Assembly: GCF_032854445.1 (NCBI RefSeq)
Contig: NC_088300.1
Span: forward strand, 69,786,984 to 69,850,983
Length of the DNA: 64,000 nt
Reading direction: 5' to 3'
DNA from: Liolophura sinensis
Lineage: Eukaryota; Mollusca; Polyplacophora; Chitonida; Chitonidae
The notes beneath the pieces are model-generated. The model was not told the DNA's origin. It saw only the letters and a list, made by a program, of their open reading frames with translations, and did not search any database. Below, piece by piece: positions 643 through 64,000 of this stretch. Both the position numbers and the translations under genes were made by a program. Each line of letters opens with the position of its first letter. Positions within the stretch are counted from its first letter, which is position 1.

Positions 643-706
643 AATGAGGCCCTAGCTGTCGTGGTTTACAAAAAGCATTAGTTCCACTGCTGATGCAACG
701 CCACTG
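643..706. other. Junction between unique flank and CDC25 array
   Basis: This short segment separates the SINE-like tail from the first base matching the repeat unit. Homology to the unit begins at about 705-707, in the last bases of canonical exon 1 (aataag) just before the intron 1 donor at 713. The preceding bases do not resemble the canonical exon 1. The frame leading into the donor is open from 656 only, after an in-frame TAG at 653-655, and has no ATG. It could be the end of an unrecognised alternative exon, but a recombination breakpoint is simpler. Confidence 0.5.
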
Positions 707-712
707 AATAAG

Positions 713-1924
713 GTAACAATCACCTATTTTCTTCACCTCATTTCCCAGTTACTTTACTACCTTATTCATTTTTAGTAGTCAGTACCAGCATTCTCTGTAA
801 TATCATTTTGGATAACAGTATTCATTGCATGATTTTCCAGTATACTGTAGCAATAAATCATAACATTTTTACGTCACAGGCGTGTGAAGATGGGAAAATC
901 CACAGCCAAAACAGTCGAAAGCGAAGCCGTTCTCAAAGCGACCAGGATGATTCACCTGTGCAGAAGAGAAAGAGACCCGACGCCATTCCCGAGCCAAGCA
1001 AATGTCCACTCAGGCTGTCCAATCTCCATTCGGAACATGAAATTAAAACTGCCCTAGACAGAGGTAATTATCAAATCTCAGCTGAATTTTACTCATATAT
1101 TTATAATAAACATTACAACCGCCAGTAAGCCTAAATGAAATCTGTCTAGTATATTTGTAAACGTATGCACGTTCATTTCTCCTCGGCAGTGTCGGAAAAT
1201 CCAGACCTGATCAGTGACGGCAGCGTGGCCTACTGTCTGCCAACTGTTCCAGGCAAGCATCAAGATCTCAAGTCCATCACGCCGGAAACTTTGGCGCGGC
1301 TTCAAAAGCACGAGTTTGATGACATAGTAGACGAATTCCTCATTGTGGACTGCAGATATCCCTATGAGTTTCAAGGCGGCCACATCAAAGGAGCTGTCAA
1401 CTATTACACCAAGGACAGTATTGTGGAAAACCTTATTTCCAAACCAGTCATTACCAGGAGTAGTGCAACGAAAAGAAGCATTCTAATATTTCACTGTGAA
1501 TTTTCATCCCAAAGAGGTCCAAAAATGTCTCGATTTTTAAGGAGCCAAGACAGACAGATGAACAAGGATCGATATCCGCAGCTGTGTTATCCTGAGATTT
1601 ACTTACTTCACGGCGGATACAAAAACTTCTTTGAGAAAGAAAAGGTAGGCGCATAAGCATTTTGTTGATATAGGCTTTTGGTAACCAGCAAGACTATATG
1701 CAAAAGTAATCACCAGAAACTTTGAGTCCGTGTACTTGGTATTATGCACAGGCACAATTCAGTGATGTTGTTTATTTTTTTCTTTCTAGGAGCTCTGCAC
1801 GCCACAGACCTATCTGCCGATGCACCATGAAGATTTCAAGAAGGACATGCGAACATTTCGTTGCCAGTCTAAGAGCTGGGCTGGGGAAAAGAAGAGTCGT
1901 TCTGCGTTGAGATTATTCCTTTAG
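713..1924 (+). pseudogene. cdc25: Copy 1: CDC25 edge copy lacking canonical exon 1
   Basis: Exons 2-4 lie at 880-1063, 1190-1644 and 1790-1924, with intron 1 sequence at 713-879. All three coding exons are open and would encode the basic region, the catalytic domain (HCEFSSQR loop) and the C-terminal tail. The canonical promoter and exon 1 are absent: homology stops at the exon 1/intron 1 boundary. The outer part is the most diverged in the array. Intron 1 differs from the others at about seven sites, including one missing T. Exon 2 begins gcg tgt gaa gat instead of gtg tgc gaa gaa, giving V86A and E89D, and also has I97S. The rest is near-identical to its neighbours. A poly(A) signal is at 2126-2131. 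It is probably not expressed as CDC25 unless an unrecognised upstream exon supplies a start. Confidence 0.8.
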
Positions 1925-3627
1925 GCGTGAAAGTCAGCCATTTCTTATGTTTAAAGGTGGATGTTGACCTCATTCAGTTTAAAAATACATCTGTTTTGTT
2001 TTTTACCTGGAATTTCTACTGATTTGTGTACATATGATCTTTTTGAAATCCTCTCATCTTTGTTTTCTTTCTTTACATATTATCCCAGTGCTGTCGTTTG
2101 TGTACGAATCAAATATATGTGCGCCAATAAATGATCCACGTTGAATATTATCTCAGTTTTCTTCCTAGTTTCTGCCATGATGTGGCGTGCCCTATGTGCA
2201 TGATAACATGACTGTTACATCGTAAACATAAACCTTGAAAAGTTGCGCATGAAACGTAACATTACACAAAGGAAACATTCGAAACTGATATCTAGTGCTG
2301 TTGACTTAAACCCTTATTGTACAAACAGGACTGCCATGCCCGGAGCCCAACCCCAAGCTTCCTTTAAGTGGCAGTTGTACATAGTGCTTGAAAGGTACGA
2401 GTAACGCTTGACACTCATAATGAAAATTATTGCTTGATGAAACAACATGAGATTCTCACGCAGTCGAGTACCAATGATTATGCACAGCATGTGGTACAGT
2501 TTCCACACCATTTCGCCTCGCACAACAGGTAGCAGGTTCGCTTCCGTTTTGAACAAAATTTAGCGCTTGATCTGTGTCCACATCTGAATTTAGAAGGATG
2601 GAGAGAAAATCCTGCGATTTAAAGTACACCGAGAATTTGTATATGCTGACGTTTCCGAGAACCTATCAAAAGCCATGTGTGGAGTAGTTCCCTTTCTCAA
2701 ACGTTGGTCTCCCTTAATATGGAAGACGAGTTTAAGCAGAATGTTGACACTCAAGCTGAAATATTTGAAACAAGTGTAAAATTCAAATGCATCCATGCAT
2801 GTGATAAGGCAATTACGGATATGAACTGATCTCCTTTGTAAACGACATATTCCCAATATGCTGTATCCTGTGCCAACAATTTACTTCTTGTAGAAAAGCA
2901 ACAATGTGCAGGCGAGATATAATACAAACGTACTATGTGCACTGTCACCATACACGAAACCTAATGAAAAGTGTAAATAGGTCGCTAAGGTAAACACAAC
3001 GTACACATATGTATTGTGGAAGAAGTGTACCATGCAAGTGGTGAAAATTATGTCTGACAAGGTTTCTTTCATCGAAAAATGGTGTGTGCAGCCAACATCT
3101 CTCCAACTCGCTTCTTGCTGACAAACTAAATTGTCTCCCACCGTTTTGGTGTATGTATATGTAAATGGTAGACTTCCCACTGGAAAGAAGTGACAGTGAC
3201 AAACTATGTTGAGTGAAATGCAAATTTCAACGCATTCTACTTAAACAAATGACGCGTGTAGCTGTACGATTAGGGGAAAATAGACTTACCGAGGTAAAAA
3301 ATATTTAATTTGTACACCGTGAACAATGTTATCTTTCTGACAGCGGCGTCTTGTACTGACAATGAGTGCCTTATACAAAGCCCTTTACATTTCCAGGCCC
3401 ATATACAGCCTAGTTCATTCTGCCGTCTTTAAAGAAGCTGACTATGATTCCTTCTCACCTCCGGCGGCCTTTTGTTTACGTGGTATCTTCCACACGACCT
3501 ACAGATAACAACACCAGCGGCATGGAGTGAAGCTGAGAGCTGAGTAAAGAACATCACGACTAATCCTATATTGCTTAACTGGATTATCGGAAAGTGAATA
3601 GAGCTCATAGATTAACTCATATTTCTG

Positions 3628-3652
3628 CAGACTGTCTCTTTCAAACAATCTG
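3628..3652 (+). promoter_or_regulatory. Variable inverted repeat upstream of copy 2
   Basis: CAGACTG and CAATCTG are separated by an 11-base spacer (TCTCTTTCAAA), about 160-183 bases before the start codon. In copies 3, 4, 7, 8 and 17 the second arm is CAGTCTG, a perfect 7-bp complement of the first arm; elsewhere an A breaks the pairing. Position in copy 3 is 6982-7006. Whether it acts as a hairpin or a paired protein site is unknown. Confidence 0.35.
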
Positions 3653-3710
3653 GAGATGACATGAATTTCTGTTGGCCGTTGAAATACAACTCCAGCTAGG
3701 TTTAACGACG

Positions 3711-3725
3711 GGGGAACTTTTCCCC
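3711..3725 (+). promoter_or_regulatory. Promoter-proximal palindrome GGGGAACTTTTCCCC
   Basis: This is a perfect 6-3-6 inverted repeat ending 7 bp before the TATA box. It is present at the same place (86-100 bases before the ATG) in every copy that has a promoter. The half-sites resemble a kappaB-type palindrome, but the spacing is longer than the classical 10-bp site, so the factor is unknown. It is a candidate activator site for the whole array. Confidence 0.4.
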
Positions 3726-3732
3726 AGCGAGA

Positions 3733-3740
3733 TATATATA
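3733..3740 (+). promoter_or_regulatory. TATA box of copy 2 (representative)
   Basis: TATATATA lies 71-78 bases before the ATG, and a start site about 25-30 bases downstream (around 3759-3765, within actcaacctaag) would give a 5' UTR of about 50 nt. The equivalent boxes in copies 3-20 begin at 7087, 10441, 13795, 17149, 20498, 23852, 27206, 30560, 33914, 37268, 40622, 44005, 45411, 48794, 52148, 55502, 58856 and 62210. Every copy except copy 1 therefore has its own RNA polymerase II core promoter and is not part of a polycistron. Confidence 0.7.
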
Positions 3741-3810
3741 CCAGAATTTAGTCCACTCAACCTAAGTCCCAGTATTTACTGAAGCCAACAGTTCAACAAA
3801 CATATCTATC

Positions 3811-5278
3811 ATGGCATCTTTACTTGCTAAGAAACTTTTTGATGACGACTCCTTCAATTTCCGCAGCCCACTTAAGCAATGTGATGATGCAGAGGAAGAC
3901 AATAGCTTTTCCCCAATGATGGATTATTTTTCAACCAAGGGAAGCTCGTCCTTTGTGGCAGAAGACGAAGATTCCAGAGATAGTGGGATAGGCCTCGACG
4001 ACAGTTTTAGCAACGATGACTGTCCGCTTTCCCTTCCTAGCAGACCTTTTGTACAGCTAAATAAGGTAACAATCACCTATTTTCTTCACCTCATTTCCCA
4101 GTTACTTTACTACCTTATTCATTTTTAGTAGTCAGTTCCAGCATTTTCTGTAAAATCATTTTGGATAACAGTATTCATTGCATGATTTTCCAGTACACTG
4201 TAGCAATAAATCATAACATTTTTTACGCCGCAGGTGTGCGAAGGAGGGAAAATCCACAGCCAAAACATTCGAAAGCGAAGCCGTTCTCAAAGCGACCAGG
4301 ATGATTCACCTGTGCAGAAGAGAAAGAGACCCGACGCCATTCCCGAGCCAAGCAAATGTCCACTCAGGCTGTCCAATCTCCATTCGGAACATGAAATTAA
4401 AACTGCCCTAGACAGAGGTAATTATCAAATCTCAGCTGAATTTTACTCATATATTTATAATAAACATTACAACCGCCAGTAAGCCTAAATGAAATCTGTC
4501 TAGTATATTTGTAAACGTATGCACGTTCATTTCTCCTCGGCAGTGTCGGAAAATCCAGACCTGATCAGTGACGGCAGCGTGGCCTACTGTCTGCCAACTA
4601 TTCCAGGCAAGCATCAAGATCTCAAGTCCATCACGCCGGAAACTTTGGCGCGGCTTCAAAAGCACGAGTTTGATGACATAGTAGACGAATTCCTCATTGT
4701 GGACTGCAGATATCCCTATGAGTTTCAAGGCGGCCACATCAAAGGAGCTGTCAACTATTACACCAAGGACAGTATTGTGGAAAACCTTATTTCCAAACCA
4801 GTCATTACCAGGAGTAGTGCAACGAAAAGAAGCATTCTAATATTTCACTGTGAATTTTCATCCCAAAGAGGTCCAAAAATGTCTCGATTTTTAAGGAGCC
4901 AAGACAGACAGATGAACAAGGATCGATATCCGCAGCTGTGTTATCCTGAGATTTACTTACTTCACGGCGGATACAAAAACTTCTTTGAGAAAGAAAAGGT
5001 AGGCGCATAAGCATTTTGTTGATATAGGCTTTTGGTAACCAGCAAGACTATATGCAAAAGTAATCACCAGAAACTTTGAGTCCGTGTACTTGGTATTATG
5101 CACAGGCACAATTCAGTGATGTTGTTTATTTTTTTCTTTCTAGGAGCTCTGCACGCCACAGACCTATCTGCCGATGCACCATGAAGATTTCAAGAAGGAC
5201 ATGCGAACATTTCGTTGCCAGTCTAAGAGCTGGGCTGGGGAAAAGAAGACTCGTTCAGCGTTGAGATTATTCCTTTAG
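3811..5278 (+). CDS. cdc25: Copy 2: CDC25-type M-phase inducer phosphatase
   Basis: CDC25 dual-specificity phosphatases remove inhibitory phosphates from Thr14/Tyr15 of cyclin-dependent kinases to trigger S or M phase. Exons: 3811-4065, 4234-4417, 4544-4998, 5144-5278; the product is 342 residues. The ATG is the first after the TATA box and opens exon 1. Residues 1-85 are acidic with DSGIGLDDS (57-65), like the beta-TrCP degron of vertebrate CDC25A, and two SP sites (19, 34). Residues 98-117 are basic in two clusters (RKRSR, KRKR), a likely bipartite NLS. Residues about 150-330 are the rhodanese-like catalytic domain: DCRYPYE (200-206), HCEFSSQR with nucleophile Cys249 and Arg255, and a [15 protein letters not shown] segment. 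The tail YLPMHHEDF and KSWAGEK is typical of animal CDC25. The protein is shorter than the vertebrate enzymes because of its N-terminus. Private changes are E89G, V166I and S334T. Confidence 0.93.
4066..4233 (+). other. Intron 1 of copy 2 (representative)
   Basis: A phase-0 intron of 168 bp, from GTAACA to a T-rich acceptor ending CCGCAG. Reading through it gives 20 extra residues before a stop. The same intron is present in all copies (167 bp in copy 1). Confidence 0.85.
4418..4543 (+). other. Intron 2 of copy 2 (representative)
   Basis: A phase-1 intron of 126 bp, from GTAATT to TCGGCAG, splitting the codon of Val147 (g|tg). In copy 18 the donor reads GTATAT instead of GTAATT. Joining across it restores the frame between the basic region and the catalytic domain. 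Confidence 0.85.
4999..5143 (+). other. Intron 3 of copy 2 (representative)
   Basis: A phase-0 intron of 145 bp, from GTAGGC to a strong pyrimidine tract (tttttttctttctag). Read-through would add Val-Gly-Ala and stop, removing the C-terminal tail. Copies differ here at one diagnostic site (gagtCCgtg or gagtGCgtg). Confidence 0.85.
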
Positions 5279-5479
5279 GCGTGAAAGTCAGCCATTTCTT
5301 ATGTTTAAAGGTGGATGTTGACCTCATTCAGTTTAAAAATACATCTGTTTTGTTTTTTACCTGGAATTTCTACTGATTTGTGTACATATGATCTTTTTGA
5401 AATCCTCTCATCTTTGTTTTCTTTCTTTACATATTATCCCAGTGCTGTCGTTTGTGTACGAATCAAATATATGTGCGCC

Positions 5480-5485
5480 AATAAA
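5480..5485 (+). terminator. AATAAA poly(A) signal of copy 2 (representative)
   Basis: A canonical AATAAA lies 202 bases after the stop codon and is followed within about 30 bases by a T-rich stretch (cagttttcttcctag) suited to cleavage. The same signal begins at 2126, 8834, 12188, 15542, 18891, 22245, 25599, 28953, 32307, 35661, 39015, 42398, 47187, 50541, 53895, 57249, 60603 and 63957 for the other copies. Copy 14 has lost its own. Confidence 0.75.
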
Positions 5486-7064
5486 TGATCCACGTTGAAT
5501 ATTATCTCAGTTTTCTTCCTAGTTTCTGCCATGATGTGGCGTGCCCTATGTGCAAGATAACATGACTGTTACATCGTAAACATAAACCTTGAAAAGTTGC
5601 GCATGAAACGTAACATTACACAAAGGAAACATTCGAAACTGATATCTAGTGCTGTTGACTTAAACCCTTATTGTACAAACAGGACTGCCATGCCCGGAGC
5701 CCAACCCCAAGCTTACTTTAAGTGACAGTTGTACATAGTGCTTGAAAGGTACGAGTAACGCTTGACACTCATAATGAAAATTATTGCTTGATGAAACAAC
5801 ATGAGATTCTCACGCAGTCGAGTACCAATGATTATGCACAGTATGTGGTACAGTTTCCACACCATTTCGCCTCGCACAACAGGTAGCAGGTTCGCTTCCG
5901 TTTTGAACAAAATTTAGCGCTTGATCTGTGTCCACATCTGAATTTAGAAGGATGGAGAGAAAATCCTGCGATTTAAAGTACACCGAGAATTTGTATATGC
6001 TGACGTTTCCGAGAACCTATCAAAAGCCATGTGTGGAGTAGTTCCCTTTCTCAAACGTTGGTCTCCCTTAATATGGAAGACGAGTTTAAGCAGAATGTTG
6101 ACACTCAAGCTGAAATATTTGAAACAAGTGTAAAATTCAAATGCATCCATGCATGTGATAAGGCAATTACGGATATGAACTGATCTCCTTTGTAAACGAC
6201 ATATTCCCAATATGCTGTATCCTGTGCCAACAATTTACTTCTTGTAGAAAAGCAACAATGTGCACGCGAGATATAATACAAACGTACTATGTGCACTGTC
6301 ACCATACACGAAACCTAATGAAAAGTGTAAATAGGTCGCTAAGGTAAACACAACGTACACATATGTATTGTGGAAGAAGTGTACCATGCAAGTGGTGAAA
6401 ATTATGTCTGACAAGGTTTCTTTCATCGAAAAATGGTGTGTGCAGCCAACATCTCTCCAACTCGCTTTTTGCTGACAAACTAAATTGTCTCCCACCGTTT
6501 TGGTGTATGTATATGTATATGGTAGACTTCCCACTGGAAAGAAGTGACAGTGACAAACTATGTTGAGTGAAATGCAAATTTCAACGCATTCTACTTAAAC
6601 AAATGACGCGTGTAGCTGTACGATTAGGGGAAAATAGACTTACCGAGGTAAAAAATATTTAATTTGTACACCGTGAACAATGTTATCTTTCTGACAGCGG
6701 CGTCTTGTACTGACAATGAGTGCCTTATACAAAGCCCTTTACATTTCCAGGCCCATATACAGCCTAGTTCATTCTGCCGTCTTTAAAGAAGCTGACTATG
6801 ATTCCTTCTCACCTCCGGCGGCCTTTTGTTTACGTGGTATCTTCCACACGACCTACAGATAACAACACCAGCGGCATGGAGTGAAGCTGAGAGCTGAGTA
6901 AAGAACATCACGACTAATCCTATATTGCTTAACTGGATTATCGGAAAGTGAATAGAGCTCATAGATTAACTCATATTTCTGCAGACTGTCTCTTTCAAAC
7001 AGTCTGGAGATGACATGAATTTCTGTTGGCCGTTGAAATACAACTCCAGCTAGGTTTAACGACG
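5486..7064. other. Intergenic spacer after copy 2 (representative)
   Basis: About 1.6 kb lies between the poly(A) signal and the next promoter, and recurs after every copy at +3,354 bp. It contains several minus-strand frames of 65-99 codons, none with recognisable domains, compositional bias of coding DNA or promoter context. An octamer ATGCAAAT is at 6572-6579. No tRNA, 5S, snRNA, histone or transposase sequence was recognised. The spacers are as similar between copies as the exons, so conservation here says nothing about function. Confidence 0.6.
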
Positions 7065-15340: not shown

Positions 15341-17226
15341 GCGTGAAAGTCAGCCATTTCTTATGTTTAAAGGTGGATGTTGACCTCATTCAATTTAAAA
15401 ATACATCTGTTTTGTTTTTTACCTGGAATTTCTACTGATTTGTGTACATATGATCTTTTTGAAATCCTCTCATCTTTGTTTTCTTTCTTTACATATTATC
15501 CCAGTGCTGTCGTTTGTGTACGAATCAAATATATGTGCGCCAATAAATGATCCACGTTGAATATTATCTCAGTTTTCTTCCTAGTTTCTGCCATGATGTG
15601 GCGTGCCCTATGTGCATGATAACATGACTGTTACATCGTAAACATAAACCTTGAAAAGTTGCGCATGAAACGTAACATTACACAAAGGAAACATTCGAAA
15701 CTGATATCTAGTGCTGTTGACTTAAACCCTTATTGTACAAACAGGACTGCCATGCCCGGAGCCCAACCCCAAGCTTACTTTAAGTGGCAGTTGTACATAG
15801 TGCTTGAAAGGTACGAGTAACGCTTGACACTCATAATGAAAATTATTGCTTGATGAAACAACATGAGATTCTCACGCAGTCGAGTACCAATGATTATGCA
15901 CAGTATGTGGTACAGTTTCCACACCATTTCGCCTCGCACAACAGGTAGCAGGTTCGCTTCCGTTTTGAACAAAATTTAGCGCTTGATCTGTGTCCACATC
16001 TGAATTTAGAAGGATGGAGAGAAAATCCTGCGATTTAAAGTACACCGAGAATTTGTATATGCTGACGTTTCCGAGAACCTATCAAAAGCCATGTGTGGAG
16101 TAGTTCCCTTTCTCAAACGTTGGTCTCCCTTAATATGGAAGACGAGTTTAAGCAGAATGTTGACACTCAAGCTGAAATATTTGAAACAAGTGTAAAATTC
16201 AAATGCATCCATGCATGTGATAAGGCAATTACGGATATGAACTGATCTCCTTTGTAAACGACATATTCCCAATATGCTGTATCCTGTGCCAACAATTTAC
16301 TTCTTGTAGAAAAGCAACAATGTGCACGCGAGATATAATACAAACGTACTATGTGCACTGTCACCATACACGAAACCTAATGAAAAGTGTAAATAGGTCG
16401 CTAAGGTAAACACAACGTACACATATGTATTGTGGAAGAAGTGTACCATGCAAGTGGTGAAAATTATGTCTGACAAGGTTTCTTTCATCGAAAAATGGTG
16501 TGTGCAGCCAACATCTCTCCAACTCGCTTCTTGCTGACAAACTAAATTGTCTCCCACCGTTTTGGTGTATGTATATGTATATGGTAGACTTCCCACTGGA
16601 AAGAAGTGACAGTGACAAACTATGTTGAGTGAAATGCAAATTTCAACGCATTCTACTTAAACAAATGACGCGTGTAGCTGTACGATTAGGGGAAAATAGA
16701 CTTACCGAGGTAAAAAATATTTAATTTGTACACCGTGAACAATGTTATCTTTCTGACAGCGGCGTCTTGTACTGACAATGAGTGCCTTATACAAAGCCCT
16801 TTACATTTCCAGGCCCATATACAGCCTAGTTCATTCTGCCGTCTTTAAAGAAGCTGACTATGATTCCTTCTCACCTCCGGCGGCCTTTTGTTTACGTGGT
16901 ATCTTCCACACGACCTACAGATAACAACACCAGCGGCATGGAGTGAAGCTGAGAGCTGAGTAAAGAACATCACGACTAATCCTATATTGCTTAACTGGAT
17001 TATCGGAAAGTGAATAGAGCTCATAGATTAACTCATATTTCTGCAGACTGTCTCTTTCAAACAATCTGGAGATGACATGAATTTCTGTTGGCCGTTGAAA
17101 TACAACTCCAGCTAGGTTTAACGACGGGGGAACTTTTCCCCAGCGAGATATATATACCAGAATTTAGTCCACTCAACCTAAGTCCCAGTATTTACTGAAG
17201 CCAACAGTTCAACAAACATATCTATC

Positions 17227-18689
17227 ATGGCATCTTTACTTGCTAAGAAACTTTTTGATGACGACTCCTTCAATTTCCGCAGCCCACTTAAGCAATGTGA
17301 TGATGCAGAGGAAGACAATAGCTTTTCCCCAATGATGGATTATTTTTCAACCAAGGGAAGCTCGTCCTTTGTGGCAGAAGACGAAGATTCCAGAGATAGT
17401 GGGATAGGCCTCGACGACAGTTTTAGCAACGATGACTGTCCGCTTTCCCTTCCTAGCAGACCTTTTGTACAGCTAAATAAGGTAACAATCACCTATTTTC
17501 TTCACCTCATTTCCCAGTTACTTTACTACCTTATTCATTTTTAGTAGTCAGTTCCAGCATTTTCTGTAAAATCATTTTGGATAACAGTATTCATTGCATG
17601 ATTTTCCAGTACACTGTAGCAATAAATCATAACATTTTTTACGCCGCAGGTGTGCGAAGAAGGGAAAATCCACAGCCAAAACATTCGAAAGCGAAGCCGT
17701 TCTCAAAGCGACCAGGATGATTCACCTGTGCAGAAGAGAAAGAGACCCGACGCCATTCCCGAGCCAAGCAAATGTCCACTCAGGCTGTCCAATCTCCATT
17801 CGGAACATGAAATTAAAACTGCCCTAGACAGAGGTAATTATCAAATCTCAGCTGAATTTTACTCATATATTTATAATAAACATTACAACCGCCAGTAAGC
17901 CTAAATGAAATCTGTCTAGTATATTTGTAAACGTATGCACGTTCATTTCTCCTCGGCAGTGTCGGAAAATCCAGACCTGATCAGTGACGGCAGCGTGGCC
18001 TACTGTCTGCCAACTGTTCCAGGCAAGCATCAAGATCTCAAGTCCATCACGCCGGAAACTTTGGCGCGGCTTCAAAAGCACGAGTTTGATGACATAGTAG
18101 ACGAATTCCTCATTGTGGACTGCAGATATCCCTATGAGTTTCAAGGCGGCCACATCAAAGGAGCTGTCAACTATTACACCAAGGACAGTATTGTGGAAAA
18201 TTTCCAAACCAGTCATTACCAGGAGTAGTGCAACGAAAAGAAGCATTCTAATATTTCACTGTGAATTTTCATCCCAAAGAGGTCCAAAAATGTCTCGATT
18301 TTTAAGGAGCCAAGACAGACAGATGAACAAGGATCGATATCCGCAGCTGTGTTATCCCGAGATTTACTTACTTCACGGCGGATACAAAAACTTCTTTGAG
18401 AAAGAAAAGGTAGGCGCATAAGCATTTTGTTGATATAGGCTTTTGGTAACCAGCAAGACTATATGCAAAAGTAATCACCAGAAACTTTGAGTGCGTGTAC
18501 TTGGTATTATGCACAGGCACAATTCAGTGATGTTGTTTATTTTTTTCTTTCTAGGAGCTCTGCACGCCACAGACCTATCTGCCGATGCACCATGAAGATT
18601 TCAAGAAGGACATGCGAACATTTCGTTGCCAGTCTAAGAGCTGGGCTGGGGAAAAGAAGAGTCGTTCTGCGTTGAGATTATTCCTTTAG
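17227..18689 (+). pseudogene. cdc25: Copy 6: CDC25 copy broken by a 5-bp deletion
   Basis: Exons: 17227-17481, 17650-17833, 17960-18409, 18555-18689. Exon 3 lacks five bases at about 18201 (gtggaaaatttcc instead of gtggaaaaccttatttcc). This shifts the frame after Asn227 and ends translation at a stop at 18226-18228, before the catalytic Cys249. Promoter, splice sites and poly(A) signal (18891-18896) are intact, so it could still be transcribed. A translated product would carry only the degron, the NLS-like region and the front half of the domain. The deletion also accounts for the 3,349-bp spacing to the next copy. Confidence 0.92.
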
Positions 18690-20575
18690 GCGTGAAAGTC
18701 AGCCATTTCTTATGTTTAAAGGTGGATGTTGACCTCATTCAATTTAAAAATACATCTGTTTTGTTTTTTACCTGGAATTTCTACTGATTTGTGTACATAT
18801 GATCTTTTTGAAATCCTCTCATCTTTGTTTTCTTTCTTTACATATTATCCCAGTGCTGTCGTTTGTGTACGAATCAAATATATGTGCGCCAATAAATGAT
18901 CCACGTTGAATATTATCTCAGTTTTCTTCCTAGTTTCTGCCATGATGTGGCGTGCCCTATGTGCATGATAACATGACTGTTACATCGTAAACATAAACCT
19001 TGAAAAGTTGCGCATGAAACGTAACATTACACAAAGGAAACATTCGAAACTGATATCTAGTGCTGTTGACTTAAACCCTTATTGTACAAACAGGACTGCC
19101 ATGCCCGGAGCCCAACCCCAAGCTTACTTTAAGTGGCAGTTGTACATAGTGCTTGAAAGGTACGAGTAACGCTTGACACTCATAATGAAAATTATTGCTT
19201 GATGAAACAACATGAGATTCTCACGCAGTCGAGTACCAATGATTATGCACAGTATGTGGTACAGTTTCCACACCATTTCGCCTCGCACAACAGGTAGCAG
19301 GTTCGCTTCCGTTTTGAACAAAATTTAGCGCTTGATCTGTGTCCACATCTGAATTTAGAAGGATGGAGAGAAAATCCTGCGATTTAAAGTACACCGAGAA
19401 TTTGTATATGCTGACGTTTCCGAGAACCTATCAAAAGCCATGTGTGGAGTAGTTCCCTTTCTCAAACGTTGGTCTCCCTTAATATGGAAGACGAGTTTAA
19501 GCAGAATGTTGACACTCAAGCTGAAATATTTGAAACAAGTGTAAAATTCAAATGCATCCATGCATGTGATAAGGCAATTACGGATATGAACTGATCTCCT
19601 TTGTAAACGACATATTCCCAATATGCTGTATCCTGTGCCAACAATTTACTTCTTGTAGAAAAGCAACAATGTGCACGCGAGATATAATACAAACGTACTA
19701 TGTGCACTGTCACCATACACGAAACCTAATGAAAAGTGTAAATAGGTCGCTAAGGTAAACACAACGTACACATATGTATTGTGGAAGAAGTGTACCATGC
19801 AAGTGGTGAAAATTATGTCTGACAAGGTTTCTTTCATCGAAAAATGGTGTGTGCAGCCAACATCTCTCCAACTCGCTTCTTGCTGACAAACTAAATTGTC
19901 TCCCACCGTTTTGGTGTATGTATATGTATATGGTAGACTTCCCACTGGAAAGAAGTGACAGTGACAAACTATGTTGAGTGAAATGCAAATTTCAACGCAT
20001 TCTACTTAAACAAATGACGCGTGTAGCTGTACGATTAGGGGAAAATAGACTTACCGAGGTAAAAAATATTTAATTTGTACACCGTGAACAATGTTATCTT
20101 TCTGACAGCGGCGTCTTGTACTGACAATGAGTGCCTTATACAAAGCCCTTTACATTTCCAGGCCCATATACAGCCTAGTTCATTCTGCCGTCTTTAAAGA
20201 AGCTGACTATGATTCCTTCTCACCTCCGGCGGCCTTTTGTTTACGTGGTATCTTCCACACGACCTACAGATAACAACACCAGCGGCATGGAGTGAAGCTG
20301 AGAGCTGAGTAAAGAACATCACGACTAATCCTATATTGCTTAACTGGATTATCGGAAAGTGAATAGAGCTCATAGATTAACTCATATTTCTGCAGACTGT
20401 CTCTTTCAAACAGTCTGGAGATGACATGAATTTCTGTTGGCCGTTGAAATACAACTCCAGCTAGGTTTAACGACGGGGGAACTTTTCCCCAGCGAGATAT
20501 ATATACCAGAATTTAGTCCACTCAACCTAAGTCCCAGTATTTACTGAAGCCAACAGTTCAACAAACATATCTATC

Positions 20576-45488: not shown

Positions 45489-46985
45489 ATGGCATCTTTA
45501 CTTGCTAAGAAACTTTTTGATGACGACTCCTTCAATTTCCGCAGCCCACTTAAGCAATGTGATGATGCAGAGGAAGACAATAGCTTTTCCCCAATGATGG
45601 ATTATTTTTCAACCAAGGGAAGCTCGTCCTTTGTGGCAGAAGACGAAGATTCCAGAGATAGTGGGATAGGCCTCGACGACAGTTTTAGCAACGATGACTG
45701 TCCGCTTTCCCTTCCTAGCAGACCTTTTGTACAGCTAAATAAGGTAACAATCACCTATTTTCTTCACCTCATTTCCCAGTTACTTTACTACCTTATTCAT
45801 TTTTAGTAGTCAGTTCCAGCATTTTCTGTAAAATCATTTTGGATAACAGTATTCATTGCATGATTTTCCAGTACACTGTGGCAATAAATCATAACATTTT
45901 TTACGCCGCAGGTGTGCGAAGAAGGGAAAATCCACAGCCAAAACATTCGAAAGCGAAGCCGTTCTCAAAGCGACCAGGATGATTCACCTGTGCAGAAGAG
46001 AAAGAGACCCGACGCCATTCCCGAGCCAAGCAAATGTCCACTCAGGCTGTCCAATCTCCATTCGGAACATGAAATTAAAACTGCCCTAGACAGAGGTAAT
46101 TATCAAATCTCAGCTGAATTTTACTCATATATTTATAATAAACATTACAACCGCCAGTAAGCCTAAATGAAATCTGTCTAGTATATTTGTAAACGTATGC
46201 ACGTTCATTTCTCCTCGGCAGTGTCGGAAAATCCAGACCTGATCAGTGACGGCAGCGTGGCCTACTGTCTGCCAACTGTTCCAGGCAAGCATCAAGATCT
46301 CAAGTCCATCACGCCGGAAACTTTGGCGCGGCTTCAAAAGCACGAGTTTGATGACATAGTAGACATCAAATATAAAAATAAAAATCAAATAAACAATTCC
46401 TCATTGTGGACTGCAGATATCCCTATGAGTTTCAAGGCGGCCACATCAAAGGAGCTGTCAACTATTACACCAAGGACAGTATTGTGGAAAACCTTATTTC
46501 CAAACCAGTCATTACCAGGAGTAGTGCAACGAAAAGAAGCATTCTAATATTTCACTGTGAATTTTCATCCCAAAGAGGTCCAAAAATGTCTCGATTTTTA
46601 AGGAGCCAAGACAGACAGATGAACAAGGATCGATATCCGCAGCTGTGTTATCCTGAGATTTACTTACTTCACGGCGGATACAAAAACTTCTTTGAGAAAG
46701 AAAAGGTAGGCGCATAAGCATTTTGTTGATATAGGCTTTTGGTAACCAGCAAGACTATATGCAAAAGTAATCACCAGAAACTTTGAGTCCGTGTACTTGG
46801 TATTATGCACAGGCACAATTCAGTGATGTTGTTTATTTTTTTCTTTCTAGGAGCTCTGCACGCCACAGACCTATCTGCCGATGCACCATGAAGATTTCAA
46901 GAAGGACATGCGAACATTTCGTTGCCAGTCTAAGAGCTGGGCTGGGGAAAAGAAGAGTCGTTCTGCGTTGAGATTATTCCTTTAG
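45489..46985 (+). pseudogene. cdc25: Copy 15: CDC25 copy with the same AT-rich insertion
   Basis: Exons: 45489-45743, 45912-46095, 46222-46705, 46851-46985. Exon 3 has the 30-for-1 replacement seen in copy 13, at 46365-46394, with one base different (atcaaat versus ataaaat). The frame breaks after Asp194 and stops at 46545-46547. It lacks the P76L and V159M of copy 13, so the two copies are related but not identical. An intron 1 change (cactgtGgca) is private. AATAAA is at 47187-47192. The spacer that follows has the gcggCctctt marker. Confidence 0.92.
46365..46394. other. 30-base AT-rich insertion in copy 15 exon 3
   Basis: The same insertion as in copy 13 at the identical site, with a C for A at its third base. 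One origin followed by duplication or gene conversion is the simplest explanation. Confidence 0.8.
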
Positions 46986-48871
46986 GCGTGAAAGTCAGCC
47001 ATTTCTTATGTTTAAAGGTGGATGTTGACCTCATTCAGTTTAAAAATACATCTGTTTTGTTTTTTACCTGGAATTTCTACTGATTTGTGTACATATGATC
47101 TTTTTGAAATCCTCTCATCTTTGTTTTCTTTCTTTACATATTATCCCAGTGCTGTCGTTTGTGTACGAATCAAATATATGTGCGCCAATAAATGATCCAC
47201 GTTGAATATTATCTCAGTTTTCTTCCTAGTTTCTGCCATGATGTGGCGTGCCCTATGTGCATGATAACATGACTGTTACATCGTAAACATAAACCTTGAA
47301 AAGTTGCGCATGAAACGTAACATTACACAAAGGAAACATTCGAAACTGATATCTAGTGCTGTTGACTTAAACCCTTATTGTACAAACAGGACTGCCATGC
47401 CCGGAGCCCAACCCCAAGCTTACTTTAAGTGGCAGTTGTACATAGTGCTTGAAAGGTACGAGTAACGCTTGACACTCATAATGAAAATTATTGCTTGATG
47501 AAACAACATGAGATTCTCACGCAGTCGAGTACCAATGATTATGCACAGCATGTGGTACAGTTTCCACACCATTTCGCCTCGCACAACAGGTAGCAGGTTC
47601 GCTTCCGTTTTGAACAAAATTTAGCGCTTGATCTGTGTCCACATCTGAATTTAGAAGGATGGAGAGAAAATCCTGCGATTTAAAGTACACCGAGAATTTG
47701 TATATGCTGACGTTTCCGAGAACCTATCAAAAGCCATGTGTGGAGTAGTTCCCTTTCTCAAACGTTGGTCTCCCTTAATATGGAAGACGAGTTTAAGCAG
47801 AATGTTGACACTCAAGCTGAAATATTTGAAACAAGTGTAAAATTCAAATGCATCCATGCGTGTGATAAGGCAATTACGGATATGAACTGATCTCCTTTGT
47901 AAACGACATATTCCCAATATGCTGTATCCTGTGCCAACAATTTACTTCTTGTAGAAAAGCAACAATGTGCACGCGAGATATAATACAAACGTACTATGTG
48001 CACTGTCACCATACACGAAACCTAATGAAAAGTGTAAATAGGTCGCTAAGGTAAACACAACGTACACATATGTATTGTGGAAGAAGTGTACCATGCAAGT
48101 GGTGAAAATTATGTCTGACAAGGTTTCTTTCATCGAAAAATGGTGTGTGCAGCCAACATCTCTCCAACTCGCTTCTTGCTGACAAACTAAATTGTCTCCC
48201 ACCGTTTTGGTGTATGTATATGTATATGGTAGACTTCCCACTGGAAAGAAGTGACAGTGACAAACTATGTTGAGTGAAATGCAAATTTCAACGCATTCTA
48301 CTTAAACAAATGACGCGTGTAGCTGTACGATTAGGGGAAAATAGACTTACCGAGGTAAAAAATATTTAATTTGTACACCGTGAACAATGTTATCTTTCTG
48401 ACAGCGGCCTCTTGTACTGACAATGAGTGCCTTATACAAAGCCCTTTACATTTCCAGGCCCATATACAGCCTAGTTCATTCTGCCGTCTTTAAAGAAGCT
48501 GACTATGATTCCTTCTCACCTCCGGCGGCCTTTTGTTTACGTGGTATCTTCCACACGACCTACAGATAACAACACCAGCGGCATGGAGTGAAGCTGAGAG
48601 CTGAGTAAAGAACATCACGACTAATCCTATATTGCTTAACTGGATTATCGGAAAGTGAATAGAGCTCATAGATTAACTCATATTTCTGCAGACTGTCTCT
48701 TTCAAACAATCTGGAGATGACATGAATTTCTGTTGGCCGTTGAAATACAACTCCAGCTAGGTTTAACGACGGGGGAACTTTTCCCCAGCGAGATATATAT
48801 ACCAGAATTTAGTCCACTCAACCTAAGTCCCAGTATTTACTGAAGCCAACAGTTCAACAAACATATCTATC

Positions 48872-50339: not shown

Positions 50340-52225
50340 GCGTGAAAGTCAGCCATTTCTTATGTTTAAAGGTGGATGTTGACCTCATTCAGTTTAAAAA
50401 TACATCTGTTTTGTTTTTTACCTGGAATTTCTACTGATTTGTGTACATATGATCTTTTTGAAATCCTCTCATCTTTGTTTTCTTTCTTTACATATTATCC
50501 CAGTGCTGTCGTTTGTGTACGAATCAAATATATGTGCGCCAATAAATGATCCACGTTGAATATTATCTCAGTTTTCTTCCTAGTTTCTGCCATGATGTGG
50601 CGTGCCCTATGTGCATGATAACATGACTGTTACATCGTAAACATAAACCTTGAAAAGTTGCGCATGAAACGTAACATTACACAAAGGAAACATTCGAAAC
50701 TGATATCTAGTGCTGTTGACTTAAACCCTTATTGTACAAACAGGACTGCCATGCCCGGAGCCCAACCCCAAGCTTACTTTAAGTGGCAGTTGTACATAGT
50801 GCTTGAAAGGTACGAGTAACGCTTGACACTCATAATGAAAATTATTGCTTGATGAAACAACATGAGATTCTCACGCAGTCGAGTACCAATGATTATGCAC
50901 AGTATGTGGTACAGTTTCCACACCATTTCGCCTCGCACAACAGGTAGCAGGTTCGCTTCCGTTTTGAACAAAATTTAGCGCTTGATCTGTGTCCACATCT
51001 GAATTTAGAAGGATGGAGAGAAAATCCTGCGATTTAAAGTACACCGAGAATTTGTATATGCTGACGTTTCCGAGAACCTATCAAAAGCCATGTGTGGAGT
51101 AGTTCCCTTTCTCAAACGTTGGTCTCCCTTAATATGGAAGACGAGTTTAAGCAGAATGTTGACACTCAAGCTGAAATATTTGAAACAAGTGTAAAATTCA
51201 AATGCATCCATGCATGTGATAAGGCAATTACGGATATGAACTGATCTCCTTTGTAAACGACATATTCCCAATATGCTGTATCCTGTGCCAACAATTTACT
51301 TCTTGTAGAAAAGCAACAATGTGCACGCGAGATATAATACAAACGTACTATGTGCACTGTCACCATACACGAAATCTAATGAAAAGTGTAAATAGGTCGC
51401 TAAGGTAAACACAACGTACACATATGTATTGTGGAAGAAGTGTACCATGCAAGTGGTGAAAATTATGTCTGACAAGGTTTCTTTCATCGAAAAATGGTGT
51501 GTGCAGCCAACATCTCTCCAACTCGCTTCTTGCTGACAAACTAAATTGTCTCCCACCGTTTTGGTGTATGTATATGTATATGGTAGACTTCCCACTGGAA
51601 AGAAGTGACAGTGACAAACTATGTTGAGTGAAATGCAAATTTCAACGCATTCTACTTAAACAAATGACGCGTGTAGCTGTACGATTAGGGGAAAATAGAC
51701 TTACCGAGGTAAAAAATATTTAATTTGTACACCGTGAACAATGTTATCTTTCTGACAGCGGCGTCTTGTACTGACAATGAGTGCCTTATACAAAGCCTTT
51801 TACATTTCCAGGCCCATATACAGCCTAGTTCATTCTGCCGTCTTTAAAGAAGCTGACTATGATTCCTTCTCACCTCCGGCGGCCTTTTGTTTACGTGGTA
51901 TCTTCCACACGACCTACAGATAACAACACCAGCGGCATGGAGTGAAGCTGAGAGCTGAGTAAAGAACATCACGACTAATCCTATATTGCTTAACTGGATT
52001 ATCGGAAAGTGAATAGAGCTCATAGATTAACTCATATTTCTGCAGACTGTCTCTTTCAAACAGTCTGGAGATGACATGAATTTCTGTTGGCCGTTGAAAT
52101 ACAACTCCAGCTAGGTTTAACGACGGGGGAACTTTTCCCCAGCGAGATATATATACCAGAATTTAGTCCACTCAACCTAAGTCCCAGTATTTACTGAAAC
52201 CAACAGTTCAACAAACATATCTATC

Positions 52226-53693
52226 ATGGCATCTTTACTTGCTAAGAAACTTTTTGATGACGACTCCTTCAATTTCCGCAGCCCACTTAAGCAATGTGAT
52301 GATGCAGAGGAAGACAATAGCTTTTCCCCAATGATGGATTATTTTTCAACCAAGGGAAGCTCGTCCTTTGTGGCAGAAGACGAAGATTCCAGAGATAGTG
52401 GGATAGGCCTCGACGACAGTTTTAGCAACGATGACTGTCCGCTTTCCCTTCCTAGCAGACCTTTTGTACAGCTAAATAAGGTAACAATCACCTATTTTCT
52501 TCACCTCATTTCCCAGTTACTTTACTACCTTATTCATTTTTAGTAGTCAGTTCCAGCATTTTCTGTAAAATCATTTTGGATAACAGTATTCATTGCATGA
52601 TTTTCCAGTACACTGTAGCAATAAATCATAACATTTTTTACGCCGCAGGTGTGCGAAGAAGGGAAAATCCACAGCCAAAACATTCGAAAGCGAAGCCGTT
52701 CTCAAAGCGACCAGGATGATTCACCTGTGCAGAAGAGAAAGAGACCCGACGCCATTCCCGAGCCAAGCAAATGTCCACTCAGGCTGTCCAATCTCCATTC
52801 GGAACATGAAATTAAAACTGCCCTAGACAGAGGTAATTATCAAATCTCAGCTGAATTTTACTCATATATTTATAATAAACATTACAACCGCCAGTAAGCC
52901 TAAATGAAATCTGTCTAGTATATTTGTAAACGTATGCACGTTCATTTCTCCTCGGCAGTGTCGGAAAATCCAGACCTGATCAGTGACGGCAGCGTGGCCT
53001 ACTGTCTGCCAACTGTTCCAGGCAAGCATCAAGATCTCAAGTCCATCACGCCGGAAACTTTGGCGCGGCTTCAAAAGCACGAGTTTGATGACATAGTAGA
53101 CGAATTCCTCATTGTGGACTGCAGATATCCCTATTAGTTTCAAGGCGGCCACATCAAAGGAGCTGTCAACTATTACACCAAGGACAGTATTGTGGAAAAC
53201 CTTATTTCCAAACCAGTCATTACCAGGAGTAGTGCAACGAAAAGAAGCATTCTAATATTTCACTGTGAATTTTCATCCCAAAGAGGTCCAAAAATGTCTC
53301 GATTTTTAAGGAGCCAAGACAGACAGATGAACAAGGATCGATATCCGCAGCTGTGTTATCCTGAGATTTACTTACTTCACGGCGGATACAAAAACTTCTT
53401 TGAGAAAGAAAAGGTAGGCGCATAAGCATTTTGTTGATATAGGCTTTTGGTAACCAGCAAGACTATATGCAAAAGTAATCACCAGAAACTTTGAGTCCGT
53501 GTACTTGGTATTATGCACAGGCACAATTCAGTGATGTTGTTTATTTTTTTCTTTCTAGGAGCTCTGCACGCCACAGACCTATCTGCCGATGCACCATGAA
53601 GATTTCAAGAAGGACATGCGAACATTTCGTTGCCAGTCTAAGAGCTGGGCTGGGGAAAAGAAGAGTCGTTCTGCGTTGAGATTATTCCTTTAG
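52226..53693 (+). pseudogene. cdc25: Copy 17: CDC25 copy with nonsense codon E206*
   Basis: Exons: 52226-52480, 52649-52832, 52959-53413, 53559-53693. A single G-to-T change turns the Glu codon of DCRYPYE into TAG at 53135-53137. The product would end at residue 205, before the HCX5R loop. Everything else, including splice sites, promoter (TATA 52148-52155, perfect upstream inverted repeat) and AATAAA at 53895-53900, is intact. Being one substitution away from functional, it is a very young pseudogene, or a sequencing error that reads could exclude. Confidence 0.9.
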
Positions 53694-55579
53694 GCGTGAA
53701 AGTCAGCCATTTCTTATGTTTAAAGGTGGATGTTGACCTCATTCAGTTTAAAAATACATCTGTTTTGTTTTTTACCTGGAATTTCTACTGATTTGTGTAC
53801 ATATGATCTTTTTGAAATCCTCTCATCTTTGTTTTCTTTCTTTACATATTATCCCAGTGCTGTCGTTTGTGTACGAATCAAATATATGTGCGCCAATAAA
53901 TGATCCACGTTGAATATTATCTCAGTTTTCTTCCTAGTTTCTGCCATGATGTGGCGTGCCCTATGTGCATGATAACATGACTGTTACATCGTAAACATAA
54001 ACCTTGAAAAGTTGCGCATGAAACGTAACATTACACAAAGGAAACATTCGAAACTGATATCTAGTGCTGTTGACTTAAACCCTTATTGTACAAACAGGAC
54101 TGCCATGCCCGGAGCCCAACCCCAAGCTTACTTTAAGTGGCAGTTGTACATAGTGCTTGAAAGGTACGAGTAACGCTTGACACTCATAATGAAAATTATT
54201 GCTTGATGAAACAACATGAGATTCTCACGCAGTCGAGTACCAATGATTATGCACAGCATGTGGTACAGTTTCCACACCATTTCGCCTCGCACAACAGGTA
54301 GCAGGTTCGCTTCCGTTTTGAACAAAATTTAGCGCTTGATCTGTGTCCACATCTGAATTTAGAAGGATGGAGAGAAAATCCTGCGATTTAAAGTACACCG
54401 AGAATTTGTATATGCTGACGTTTCCGAGAACCTATCAAAAGCCATGTGTGGAGTAGTTCCCTTTCTCAAACGTTGGTCTCCCTTAATATGGAAGACGAGT
54501 TTAAGCAGAATGTTGACACTCAAGCTGAAATATTTGAAACAAGTGTAAAATTCAAATGCATCCATGCATGTGATAAGGCAATTACGGATATGAACTGATC
54601 TCCTTTGTAAACGACATATTCCCAATATGCTGTATCCTGTGCCAACAATTTACTTCTTGTAGAAAAGCAACAATGTGCACGCGAGATATAATACAAACGT
54701 ACTATGTGCACTGTCACCATACACGAAACCTAATGAAAAGTGTAAATAGGTCGCTAAGGTAAACACAACGTACACATATGTATTGTGGAAGAAGTGTACC
54801 ATGCAAGTGGTGAAAATTATGTCTGACAAGGTTTCTTTCATCGAAAAATGGTGTGTGCAGCCAACATCTCTCCAACTCGCTTCTTGCTGACAAACTAAAT
54901 TGTCTCCCACCGTTTTGGTGTATGTATATGTATATGGTAGACTTCCCACTGGAAAGAAGTGACAGTGACAAACTATGTTGAGTGAAATGCAAATTTCAAC
55001 GCATTCTACTTAAACAAATGACGCGTGTAGCTGTACGATTAGGGGAAAATAGACTTACCGAGGTAAAAAATATTTAATTTGTACACCGTGAACAATGTTA
55101 TCTTTCTGACAGCGGCCTCTTGTACTGACAATGAGTGCCTTATACAAAGCCCTTTACATTTCCAGGCCCATATACAGCCTAGTTCATTCTGCCGTCTTTA
55201 AAGAAGCTGACTATGATTCCTTCTCACCTCCGGCGGCCTTTTGTTTACGTGGTATCTTCCACACGACCTACAGATAACAACACCAGCGGCATGGAGTGAA
55301 GCTGAGAGCTGAGTAAAGAACATCACGACTAATCCTATATTGCTTAACTGGATTATCGGAAAGTGAATAGAGCTCATAGATTAACTCATATTTCTGCAGA
55401 CTGTCTCTTTCAAACAATCTGGAGATGACATGAATTTCTGTTGGCCGTTGAAATACAACTCCAGCTAGGTTTAACGACGGGGGAACTTTTCCCCAGCGAG
55501 ATATATATACCAGAATTTAGTCCACTCAACCTAAGTCCCAGTATTTACTGAAGCCAACAGTTCAACAAACATATCTATC

Positions 55580-60401: not shown

Positions 60402-62287
60402 GCGTGAAAGTCAGCCATTTCTTATGTTTAAAGGTGGATGTTGACCTCATTCAGTTTAAAAATACATCTGTTTTGTTTTTTACCTGGAATTTCTACTGAT
60501 TTGTGTACATATGATCTTTTTGAAATCCTCTCATCTTTGTTTTCTTTCTTTACATATTATCCCAGTGCTGTCGTTTGTGTACGAATCAAATATATGTGCG
60601 CCAATAAATGATCCACGTTGAATATTATCTCAGTTTTCTTCCTAGTTTCTGCCATGATGTGGCGTGCCCTATGTGCAAGATAACATGACTGTTACATCGT
60701 AAACATAAACCTTGAAAAGTTGCGCATGAAACGTAACATTACACAAAGGAAACATTCGAAACTGATATCTAGTGCTGTTGACTTAAACCCTTATTGGACA
60801 AACAGGACTGCCATGCCCGGAGCCCAACCCCAAGCTTACTTTAAGTGGCAGTTGTACATAGTGCTTGAAAGGTACGAGTAACGCTTGACACTCATAATGA
60901 AAATTATTGCTTGATGAAACAACATGAGATTCTCACGCAGTCGAGTACCAATGATTATGCACAGTATGTGGTACAGTTTCCACACCATTTCGCCTCGCAC
61001 AACAGGTAGCAGGTTCGCTTCCGTTTTGAACAAAATTTAGCGCTTGATCTGTGTCCACATCTGAATTTAGAAGGATGGAGAGAAAATCCTGCGATTTAAA
61101 GTACACCGAGAATTTGTATATGCTGACGTTTCCGAGAACCTATCAAAAGCCATGTGTGGAGTAGTTCCCTTTCTCAAACGTTGGTCTCCCTTAATATGGA
61201 AGACGAGTTTAAGCAGAATGTTGACACTCAAGCTGAAATATTTGAAACAAGTGTAAAATTCAAATGCATCCATGCATGTGGTAAGGCAATTACGGATATG
61301 AACTGATCTCCTTTGTAAACGACATATTCCCAATATGCTGTATCCTGTGCCAACAATTTACTTCTTGTAGAAAAGCAACAATGTGCACGCGAGATATAAT
61401 ACAAACGTACTATGTGCACTGTCACCATACACGAAACCTAATGAAAAGTGTAAATAGGTCGCTAAGGTAAACACAACGTACACATATGTATTGTGGAAGA
61501 AGTGTACCATGCAAGTGGTGAAAATTATGTCTGACAAGGTTTCTTTCATCGAAAAATGGTGTGTGCAGCCAACATCTCTCCAACTCGCTTCTTGCTGACA
61601 AACTAAATTGTCTCCCACCGTTTTGGTGTATGTATATGTATATGGTAGACTTCCCACTGGAAAGAAGTGACAGTGACAAACTATGTTGAGTGAAATGCAA
61701 ATTTCAACGCATTCTACTTAAACAAATGACGCGTGTAGCTGTACGATTAGGGGAAAATAGACTTACCGAGGTAAAAAATATTTAATTTGTACACCGTGAA
61801 CAATGTTATCTTTCTGACAGCGGCGTCTTGTACTGACAATGAGTGCCTTATACAAAGCCTTTTACATTTCCAGGCCCATATACAGCCTAGTTCATTCTGC
61901 CGTCTTTAAAGAAGCTGACTATGATTCCTTCTCACCTGCGGCGGCCTTTTGTTTACGTGGTATCTTCCACACGACCTACAGATAACAACACCAGCGGCAT
62001 GGAGTGAAGCTGAGAGCTGAGTAAAGAACATCACGACTAATCCTATATTGCTTAACTGGATTATCGGAAAGTGAATAGAGCTCATAGATTAACTCATATT
62101 TCTGCAGACTGTCTCTTTCAAACAATCTGGAGATGACATGAATTTCTGTTGGCCGTTGAAATACAACTCCAGCTAGGTTTAACGACGGGGGAACTTTTCC
62201 CCAGCGAGATATATATACCAGAATTTAGTCCACTCAACCTAAGTCCCAGTATTTACTGAAACCAACAGTTCAACAAACATATCTATC

Positions 62288-63755
62288 ATGGCATCTTTAC
62301 TTGCTAAGAAACTTTTTGATGACGACTCCTTCAATTTCCGCAGCCCACTTAAGCAATGTGATGATGCAGAGGAAGACAATAGCTTTTCCCCAATGATGGA
62401 TTATTTTTCAACCAAGGGAAGCTCGTCCTTTGTGGCAGAAGACGAAGATTCCAGAGATAGTGGGATAGGCCTCGACGACAGTTTTAGCAACGATGACTGT
62501 CCGCTTTCCCTTCCTAGCAGACCTTTTGTACAGCTAAATAAGGTAACAATCACCTATTTTCTTCACCTCATTTCCCAGTTACTTTACTACCTTATTCATT
62601 TTTAGTAGTCAGTTCCAGCATTTTCTGTAAAATCATTTTGGATAACAGTATTCATTGCATGATTTTCCAGTACACTGTAGCAATAAATCATAACATTTTT
62701 TACGCCGCAGGTGTGCGAAGAAGTGAAAATCCACAGCCAAAACATTCGAAAGCGAAGCCGTTCTCAAAGCGACCAGGATGATTCACCTGTGCAGAAGAGA
62801 AAGAGACCCGACGCCATTCCCGAGCCAAGCAAATGTCCACTCAGGCTGTCCAATCTCCATTCGGAACATGAAATTAAAACTGCCCTAGACAGAGGTAATT
62901 ATCAAATCTCAGCTGAATTTTACTCATATATTTATAATAAACATTACAACCGCCAGTAAGCCTAAATGAAATCTGTCTAGTATATTTGTAAACGTATGCA
63001 CGTTCATTTCTCCTCGGCAGTGTCGGAAAATCCAGACCTGATCAGTGACGGCAGCGTGGCCTACTGTCTGCCAACTGTTCCAGGCAAGCATCAAGATCTC
63101 AAGTCCATCACGCCGGAAACTTTGGCGCGGCTTCAAAAGCACGAGTTTGATGACATAGTAGACGAATTCCTCATTGTGGACTGCAGATATCCCTATGAGT
63201 TTCAAGGCGGCCACATCAAAGGAGCTGTCAACTATTACACCAAGGACAGTATTGTGGAAAACCTTATTTCCAAACCAGTCATTACCAGGAGTAGTGCAAC
63301 GAAAAGAAGCATTCTAATATTTCACTGTGAATTTTCATCCCAAAGAGGTCCAAAAATGTCTCGATTTTTAAGGAGCCAAGACAGACAGATGAACAAGGAT
63401 CGATATCCGCAGCTGTGTTATCCTGAGATTTACTTACTTCACGGCGGATACAAAAACTTCTTTGAGAAAGAAAAGGTAGGCGCATAAGCATTTTGTTGAT
63501 ATAGGCTTTTGGTAACCAGCAAGACTATATGCAAAAGTAATCACCAGAAACTTTGAGTGCGTGTACTTGGTATTATGCACAGGCACAATTCAGTGATGTT
63601 GTTTATTTTTTTCTTTCTAGGAGCTCTGCACGCCACAGACCTATCTGCCGATGCACCATGAAGATTTCAAGAAGGACATGCGAACATTTCGTTGCCAGTC
63701 TAAGAGCTGGGCTGGGGAAAAGAAGAGTCGTTCTGCGTTGAGATTATTCCTTTAG
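62288..63755 (+). CDS. cdc25: Copy 20: CDC25-type phosphatase, G90V variant
   Basis: Exons: 62288-62542, 62711-62894, 63021-63475, 63621-63755. The gene is complete and in frame, with Gly90 changed to Val (gaa gtg aaa) near the start of exon 2, just before the basic region. AATAAA is at 63957-63962 and the window ends 38 bases later inside the 3' flank, still in repeat-unit sequence, so the array continues to the right. TATA box at 62210-62217. Confidence 0.92.
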
Positions 63756-64000
63756 GCGTGAAAGTCAGCCATTTCTTATGTTTAAAGGTGGATGTTGACC
63801 TCATTCAGTTTAAAAATACATCTGTTTTGTTTTTTACCTGGAATTTCTACTGATTTGTGTACATATGATCTTTTTGAAATCCTCTCATCTTTGTTTTCTT
63901 TCTTTACATATTATCCCAGTGCTGTCGTTTGTGTACGAATCAAATATATGTGCGCCAATAAATGATCCACGTTGAATATTATCTCAGTTTTCTTCCTAGT

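Follow-up and report, generated by a model that had tools for sequence, protein, structure and literature searches.

Tandem CDC25 genes in the chiton Liolophura sinensis: a homogenised array, a related second array and a possible role in dosage

Why would a gene that triggers mitosis be repeated head to tail in the manner of ribosomal DNA (rDNA)? CDC25 is a rate-limiting switch of the cell cycle, and its excess drives premature division. An earlier note on a 64,000-nucleotide stretch of the genome of the chiton Liolophura sinensis (the window, C6:69,786,984-69,850,983, where C6 is the source chromosome contig) had nevertheless described an rDNA-like array of CDC25 units there and had proposed, among other meanings, a high germline or maternal dosage. 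Analysis of the window and of the genome that contains it (609,464,459 bases in 632 contigs) partly supports this interpretation, and adds that the array is closed at 23 units, that a related second array exists and that seven dispersed CDC25 genes are present. We give an even chance to the explanation that a lineage-specific CDC25 array was split by an inversion, homogenised and kept for dosage.

Counts of the spacing between identical 21-mers across the window gave 3,354 bp as the overwhelmingly dominant period. As the earlier note had described, a BLAST search with one unit recovered 20 consecutive plus-strand units arranged head to tail, 99.3-99.9% identical and containing no N. Tandem Repeats Finder returned an empty result, which is uninformative on a 3,354-bp unit because the tool is blind to periods above 500 bp. 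This array, in the window and to its right, is hereafter named array A (array 1), and the second one array B (array 2). Each copy was spliced by the reference exons (unit coordinates 576-830, 999-1182, 1309-1763 and 1909-2043). An open frame of 343 codons (342 amino acids and the stop) with GT/AG splice sites was found in 14 of the 20 units (U02-05, U07-12, U16 and U18-20), exactly the number of intact copies previously claimed. The right border, which the earlier note had wanted traced, is reached in the assembly: three further units, all intact, lie beyond the window and are followed by unlike flanking DNA. Array A therefore totals 23 units over about 74 kb, 17 of them intact, with both borders closed. 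Mean identity within the array is 99.5%, and its longest exact internal repeat is 5,114 bp. Two units measure 3,383 bp, one 3,349 bp and one 1,406 bp instead of 3,354 bp, and the first is 5'-truncated. The array, its broken units and the complete unit used below as an example are as follows.

704..64000, plus strand: array A, 20 of its 23 units, running on to about C6:69,861,690
704..3235, plus strand: U01, 5'-truncated, beginning at unit base 822 (exon 1 nucleotide 247), without promoter and most of exon 1; breakpoint side
3236..6589, plus strand: U02, complete 3,354-bp unit, example of the anatomy
16652..20000, plus strand: U06, broken by a 5-bp deletion in exon 3
40125..43507, plus strand: U13, broken by a 29-bp insertion in exon 3
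43508..44913, plus strand: U14, broken by an internal deletion spanning unit bases 1004 to 2952
44914..48296, plus strand: U15, broken like U13 by 29 bp inserted at the identical position
51651..55004, plus strand: U17, broken by a stop codon (E206*) in exon 3

The 29-bp insertion of U13 and U15 appears to be common to both through duplication or conversion.

Each complete unit is predicted to encode, in four exons, a CDC25 protein of 342 amino acids with a complete catalytic domain. The introns, the TATA-like promoter and the AATAAA poly(A) signal attributed to the units were recovered, the last two in every complete unit. Their positions in U02 are given below.

3321..3810, plus strand: upstream region, 79% identical between the arrays, the best conserved non-coding stretch besides intron 3
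3731..3740, plus strand: TATA-like box GATATATATA, kept in array B as GATATATAA
3811..4065, plus strand: exon 1, with the ATG; N-terminus with a DSGIGLDD degron-like motif
4234..4417, plus strand: exon 2
4544..4998, plus strand: exon 3, catalytic, with HCEFSSQR at amino acids 248-255; lacking two introns that the dispersed paralogues have; identity between the arrays 98.5%
5144..5278, plus strand: exon 4, with the stop codon
5480..5485, plus strand: AATAAA poly(A) signal

The gene had been named CDC25, and the comparison of its product with known proteins agrees: the best PDB match is human CDC25B (1cwr; phmmer E 9.1e-65, residues 138-336), and the Pfam Rhodanese model matches residues 192-294 with 47 bits. 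The Pfam M-inducer domain (PF06617) gave no hmmscan hit on the array protein, and a genome search with this model was blank even for controls. The N-terminal part, of about 146 amino acids, is poorly conserved, and it is by its catalytic domain that the protein is identified as CDC25. The motif at the N-terminus, DSRDSGIGLDDSF, is of the DSG type, occurs in most dispersed paralogues as well and may resemble the beta-TrCP degron of CDC25A. The active site HCEFSSQR, an HCX5R motif with catalytic Cys and Arg, is present in 16 of the 17 intact units of array A, U22 having H248Y. The chiton copies share with the CDC25 (M-phase inducer phosphatase) family the rhodanese-fold catalytic domain, the HCX5R motif, the C-terminal WAGEKK tail and the N-terminal DSG motif, but they stand in arrays rather than as one to a few genes, have Q in place of E in the P-loop and have a short N-terminus.

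A separate, conventional CDC25, for which the earlier note had proposed a search, proved to be represented seven times in the same genome. The protein search located dispersed genes at C9:11.012 and 11.063 Mb and at C6:50.091, 58.283, 59.179, 59.187 and 59.203 Mb, all with the active site HCEFS(S/T)ER; none of the matches of this search was a further CDC25 copy on an unplaced contig. Where exon boundaries were inspected, the catalytic part of a dispersed gene is interrupted by two extra introns, one following GGHI(K/Q) and the other PK(L/M), an arrangement that also suits the match pattern of the remaining genes. Precisely these two introns are missing from both arrays. A catalytic-domain tree unites all chiton sequences in a single clade relative to human CDC25A/B/C (support 100/99), and the two arrays pair in it (98/94). 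The dispersed genes are themselves clustered, with three inside 25 kb (C6:59.176-59.206 Mb) and two inside 52 kb (C9:11.01-11.06 Mb), which suggests that local CDC25 duplication recurred in the chiton lineage.

Array B lies on the minus strand of the same chromosome at C6:40.49-40.535 Mb, 29 Mb from array A, and comprises 11 units repeating about every 3.6 kb. Its units are mostly 94-99% alike (86-89% for B01, which is cut by a gap), and identity between the arrays is about 78% outside exon 3. Together the two arrays hold about 34 closely related, mostly intact CDC25 copies. A 200-N scaffold gap (C6:40,534,216-40,534,415) touches the upstream end of array B, which may therefore exceed 11 units; a row of rearranged fragments forms its downstream end. 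Every unit of array B has in its spacer an extra exon-4-like piece, about 0.9 kb downstream of the gene (e.g., C6:40,513,714-40,513,822), which corresponds to unit bases 1915-2022 and is 83-90% identical to array A. The adjacent copies B07 and B08 read HSEFSSQR, with Ser replacing the catalytic Cys, the textbook substitution for an inactive, substrate-trapping phosphatase. Array A itself was listed by the protein search of the genome but not by the DNA search, which passes over very common words.

The ends of the two arrays fit each other. The last fragment of array B ends at unit base 821 and array A starts at unit base 822, a match expected for random ends with a chance of about 1/3,354. These complementary ends, on opposite strands of one chromosome, indicate that one array was probably cut by an inversion inside exon 1. 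Orphan pieces at the end of array B are 89-94% identical to array A; as they have diverged by 6-11%, the break would be old, and a recent assembly mis-join of identical sequence is a poor explanation. The right flank of array A also holds spacer of the array B type (78-85% identical), which argues for a common origin. Arrays A and B were thus probably once a single array, and we infer a simple inversion as the splitting event.

The arrays differ from each other very unevenly along the gene. Synonymous divergence (dS) between them amounts to 0.53, 0.47, 0.051 and 0.18 in exons 1, 2, 3 and 4 respectively, and exon 3 differs from exons 1-2 at synonymous sites with p = 3e-8. Identity is 98.5% in exon 3, 52% in intron 2, 90% in intron 3, 79% in the upstream region and 71% in the 3' untranslated region (UTR). 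A constraint on exon 3 at the DNA level was considered and rejected, because synonymous sites are saturated relative to the dispersed paralogues: among codons for the same residue, 33 of 46 differ from a dispersed paralogue and 1 of 61 between the arrays. With synonymous sites free to change, the pattern indicates that exon 3 and what follows were homogenised between the arrays by gene conversion. The most recent conversion appears to lie in catalytic exon 3 and may have gone on after the split. Synonymous divergence of exon 3 is below the divergence of intron 3, though not significantly (p = 0.16), and is close to that within array B (0.047). In a tree of exon 3, array A nests among array B sequences, with weak support at most forks. 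Copies are closer within an array than to related copies elsewhere, the pattern of concerted evolution.

Selection has also left its mark on the arrays. In exons 1-2, comparison of the two gives dN/dS values of 0.32 and 0.50 (p = 1.4e-4), and the consensus gene of each array is open. That both remain open despite the high synonymous divergence points to purifying selection on both arrays for much of their history. The same divergence, a dS of about 0.5, implies an age that disfavours the amplification in a tumour-type or transmissible cell lineage that had been suggested.

The dosage explanation, which is built from these genomic patterns, would run as follows. A CDC25 paralogue without the two introns of the catalytic part would have been duplicated head to tail into an array. 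As in rDNA, gene conversion and unequal crossing over would have held its units near-identical. The array would then have been split by an inversion spanning about 29 Mb that broke one unit within exon 1; its two halves would have diverged, except in the catalytic exon, which homogenisation kept alike in both. Selection would maintain the gene, not each copy, and the surplus copies would raise the dose of CDC25 phosphatase, which strips inhibitory phosphates from CDK1/CDK2, at a stage of high demand, probably gametogenesis or the first cleavages; the inversion, dosage as the benefit and the germline or early embryo as its site are the parts of this scheme that we infer. Several findings weigh against it. 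Recent variants of array A give no sign of purifying selection (p = 0.21), its core units having 13 missense changes and one stop at 806 nonsynonymous sites, while silent or non-coding changes number 29 at 2,545 sites. Six of its 23 units are broken, and array B is worn by a frameshift in B04, the loss of the catalytic Cys in B07 and B08, an HCEFLSKR P-loop in B05 and, in B08 again, a missing acceptor site. The partners CDK1 (C1:2.15 Mb), cyclin B (C8:3.21 Mb) and Wee1 (C1:58.8 Mb) have one clear locus each and are not co-amplified, so that, with seven dispersed CDC25 genes besides, the arrays would alter stoichiometry if expressed. The split may have been more complex than one inversion. Finally, the variable residue of HCEFSS(E/Q)R is Q in all array copies with an intact P-loop but E in human CDC25 and in the seven dispersed genes; it falls at what we take to be the position of Glu478 of CDC25B, and full activity of the array protein is thus not certain. 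The Glu adjoining the catalytic Cys, which is kept in most array copies, corresponds to the proposed acid (Glu474 of CDC25B; PMC10135228).

The data are nearly as compatible with a neutral amplicon as with dosage. Here a redundant CDC25 paralogue would have multiplied by unequal crossing over, its copy number drifting without benefit while homogenisation spread one good version. We consider this possible, if rather doubtful. The six broken units and the altered active sites of array B, where such lesions are gathering, fit a drifting redundant family as well as they fit a need for dosage, and seven other CDC25 genes are present. The equal density of missense and silent changes among recent variants of array A is what is expected when single copies are redundant. 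A family drifting in this way does not readily account for two consensus genes that are both open at a synonymous divergence of about 0.5, for the low dN/dS in exons 1-2 or for an upstream region more conserved than the spacer.

Germline conflict could also favour many copies of a cell-cycle trigger, if multicopy CDC25 furthered its own transmission, for instance if it forced spermatocytes through meiosis. The Stellate and Su(Ste) arrays of Drosophila have a comparable layout, the two chiton arrays are linked and in opposite orientation, and the Cys-to-Ser copies of array B could serve as decoys; meiotic drive is nonetheless improbable, as the coding exons bear no sign of positive selection (dN/dS below 1) and no suppressor locus was identified. 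We find it just as improbable that a specialised short form with altered activity, a competitor or a substrate trap, was amplified for a new role. Such a role would suit the Q of the arrays against the E of the dispersed genes, the short N-terminal part and the homogenisation of the catalytic exon between arrays, but most copies retain the catalytic Cys, the Arg and the Glu next to the Cys, and E to Q is a conservative change. Least probable of all, and very unlikely, is multiplication or mis-joining of units by the assembler. The assembly was made from 14x HiFi reads with a mean length of 8,347 bp, plus Omni-C (PMC11068029), a modest depth, and array B abuts a gap. Array A, however, has no N, both its borders are present and its units bear distinguishing variants and lesions; its longest exact repeat is shorter than the mean read, so that average reads can tell its units apart, and the existence of a second array and the diverged pieces at the breakpoint speak against an artefact too. 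Additional identical units may perhaps have been collapsed at this coverage.

Some features beside the genes are worth recording. One repeat borders array A on the left:

459..636, plus strand: interspersed repeat resembling a short interspersed element (SINE), with related copies to the right of array A and close to the far end of array B

In the piece 10 kb left of the window, an open reading frame of 318 amino acids (minus strand, about 1-954) resembles by eye a Tc1/mariner-type transposase. Within window positions 1-12,000, no small-RNA or tRNA gene was found in the spacer. The 3' UTRs have motifs that the arrays do not share, a Pumilio-type TGTACATA in array A and TTTTTAT in array B, which were not counted as evidence.

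The tandem protein-gene array is a known kind of locus, and CDC25 is the unexpected part of it. As for the description "rDNA-like", it holds for organisation and homogenisation (head-to-tail units of constant length, each with its own promoter and spacer, 99.5% identity and conversion between arrays), but not for copy number or nucleolar features. Unlike rDNA or histone-type arrays, the chiton arrays consist of a regulatory, dosage-sensitive protein gene, in tens rather than hundreds of copies and with a quarter or so of the units of array A broken. We found no published CDC25 array or expansion of such form in open-access papers, and within that literature the earlier statement that none had been described stands. 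Expansions of the cell-cycle machinery are known from other animals. For the pea aphid, lineage-specific duplications of Cdc25, Cdk1, Polo, Wee1, Aurora and other G2/M genes are reported (PMC2826372); Cdk1 and Wee1 are duplicated there, while the chiton has a single locus for each of CDK1, cyclin B and Wee1. In Oikopleura, likewise an animal with planktonic embryos and an expanded core machinery, duplications of CDK1, CDC25, Wee1 and Emi2 are mentioned (PMC8832800). The passages on Cdc25 in these two papers speak of no long homogenised array. The CDK1 paralogues of Oikopleura are reported to have diversified under positive selection, in contrast to the near-identical chiton copies and the purifying selection between arrays.

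We put forward only tentatively the fuller picture of a mitosis trigger held in a concertedly evolving, rDNA-like array that would supply CDC25 in bulk to the germline or early embryo, with its catalytic exon kept uniform by conversion. The nucleotide-exact breakpoint and the homogenised tract centred on an exon are a clear natural document of conversion acting between loci now separated by 29 Mb. Set against one locus each for CDK1, cyclin B and Wee1, the roughly 34 array copies amount to a natural dosage experiment and, if the arrays are expressed, chitons would test how an embryo or a germline tolerates, or uses, an extreme dose of CDC25.

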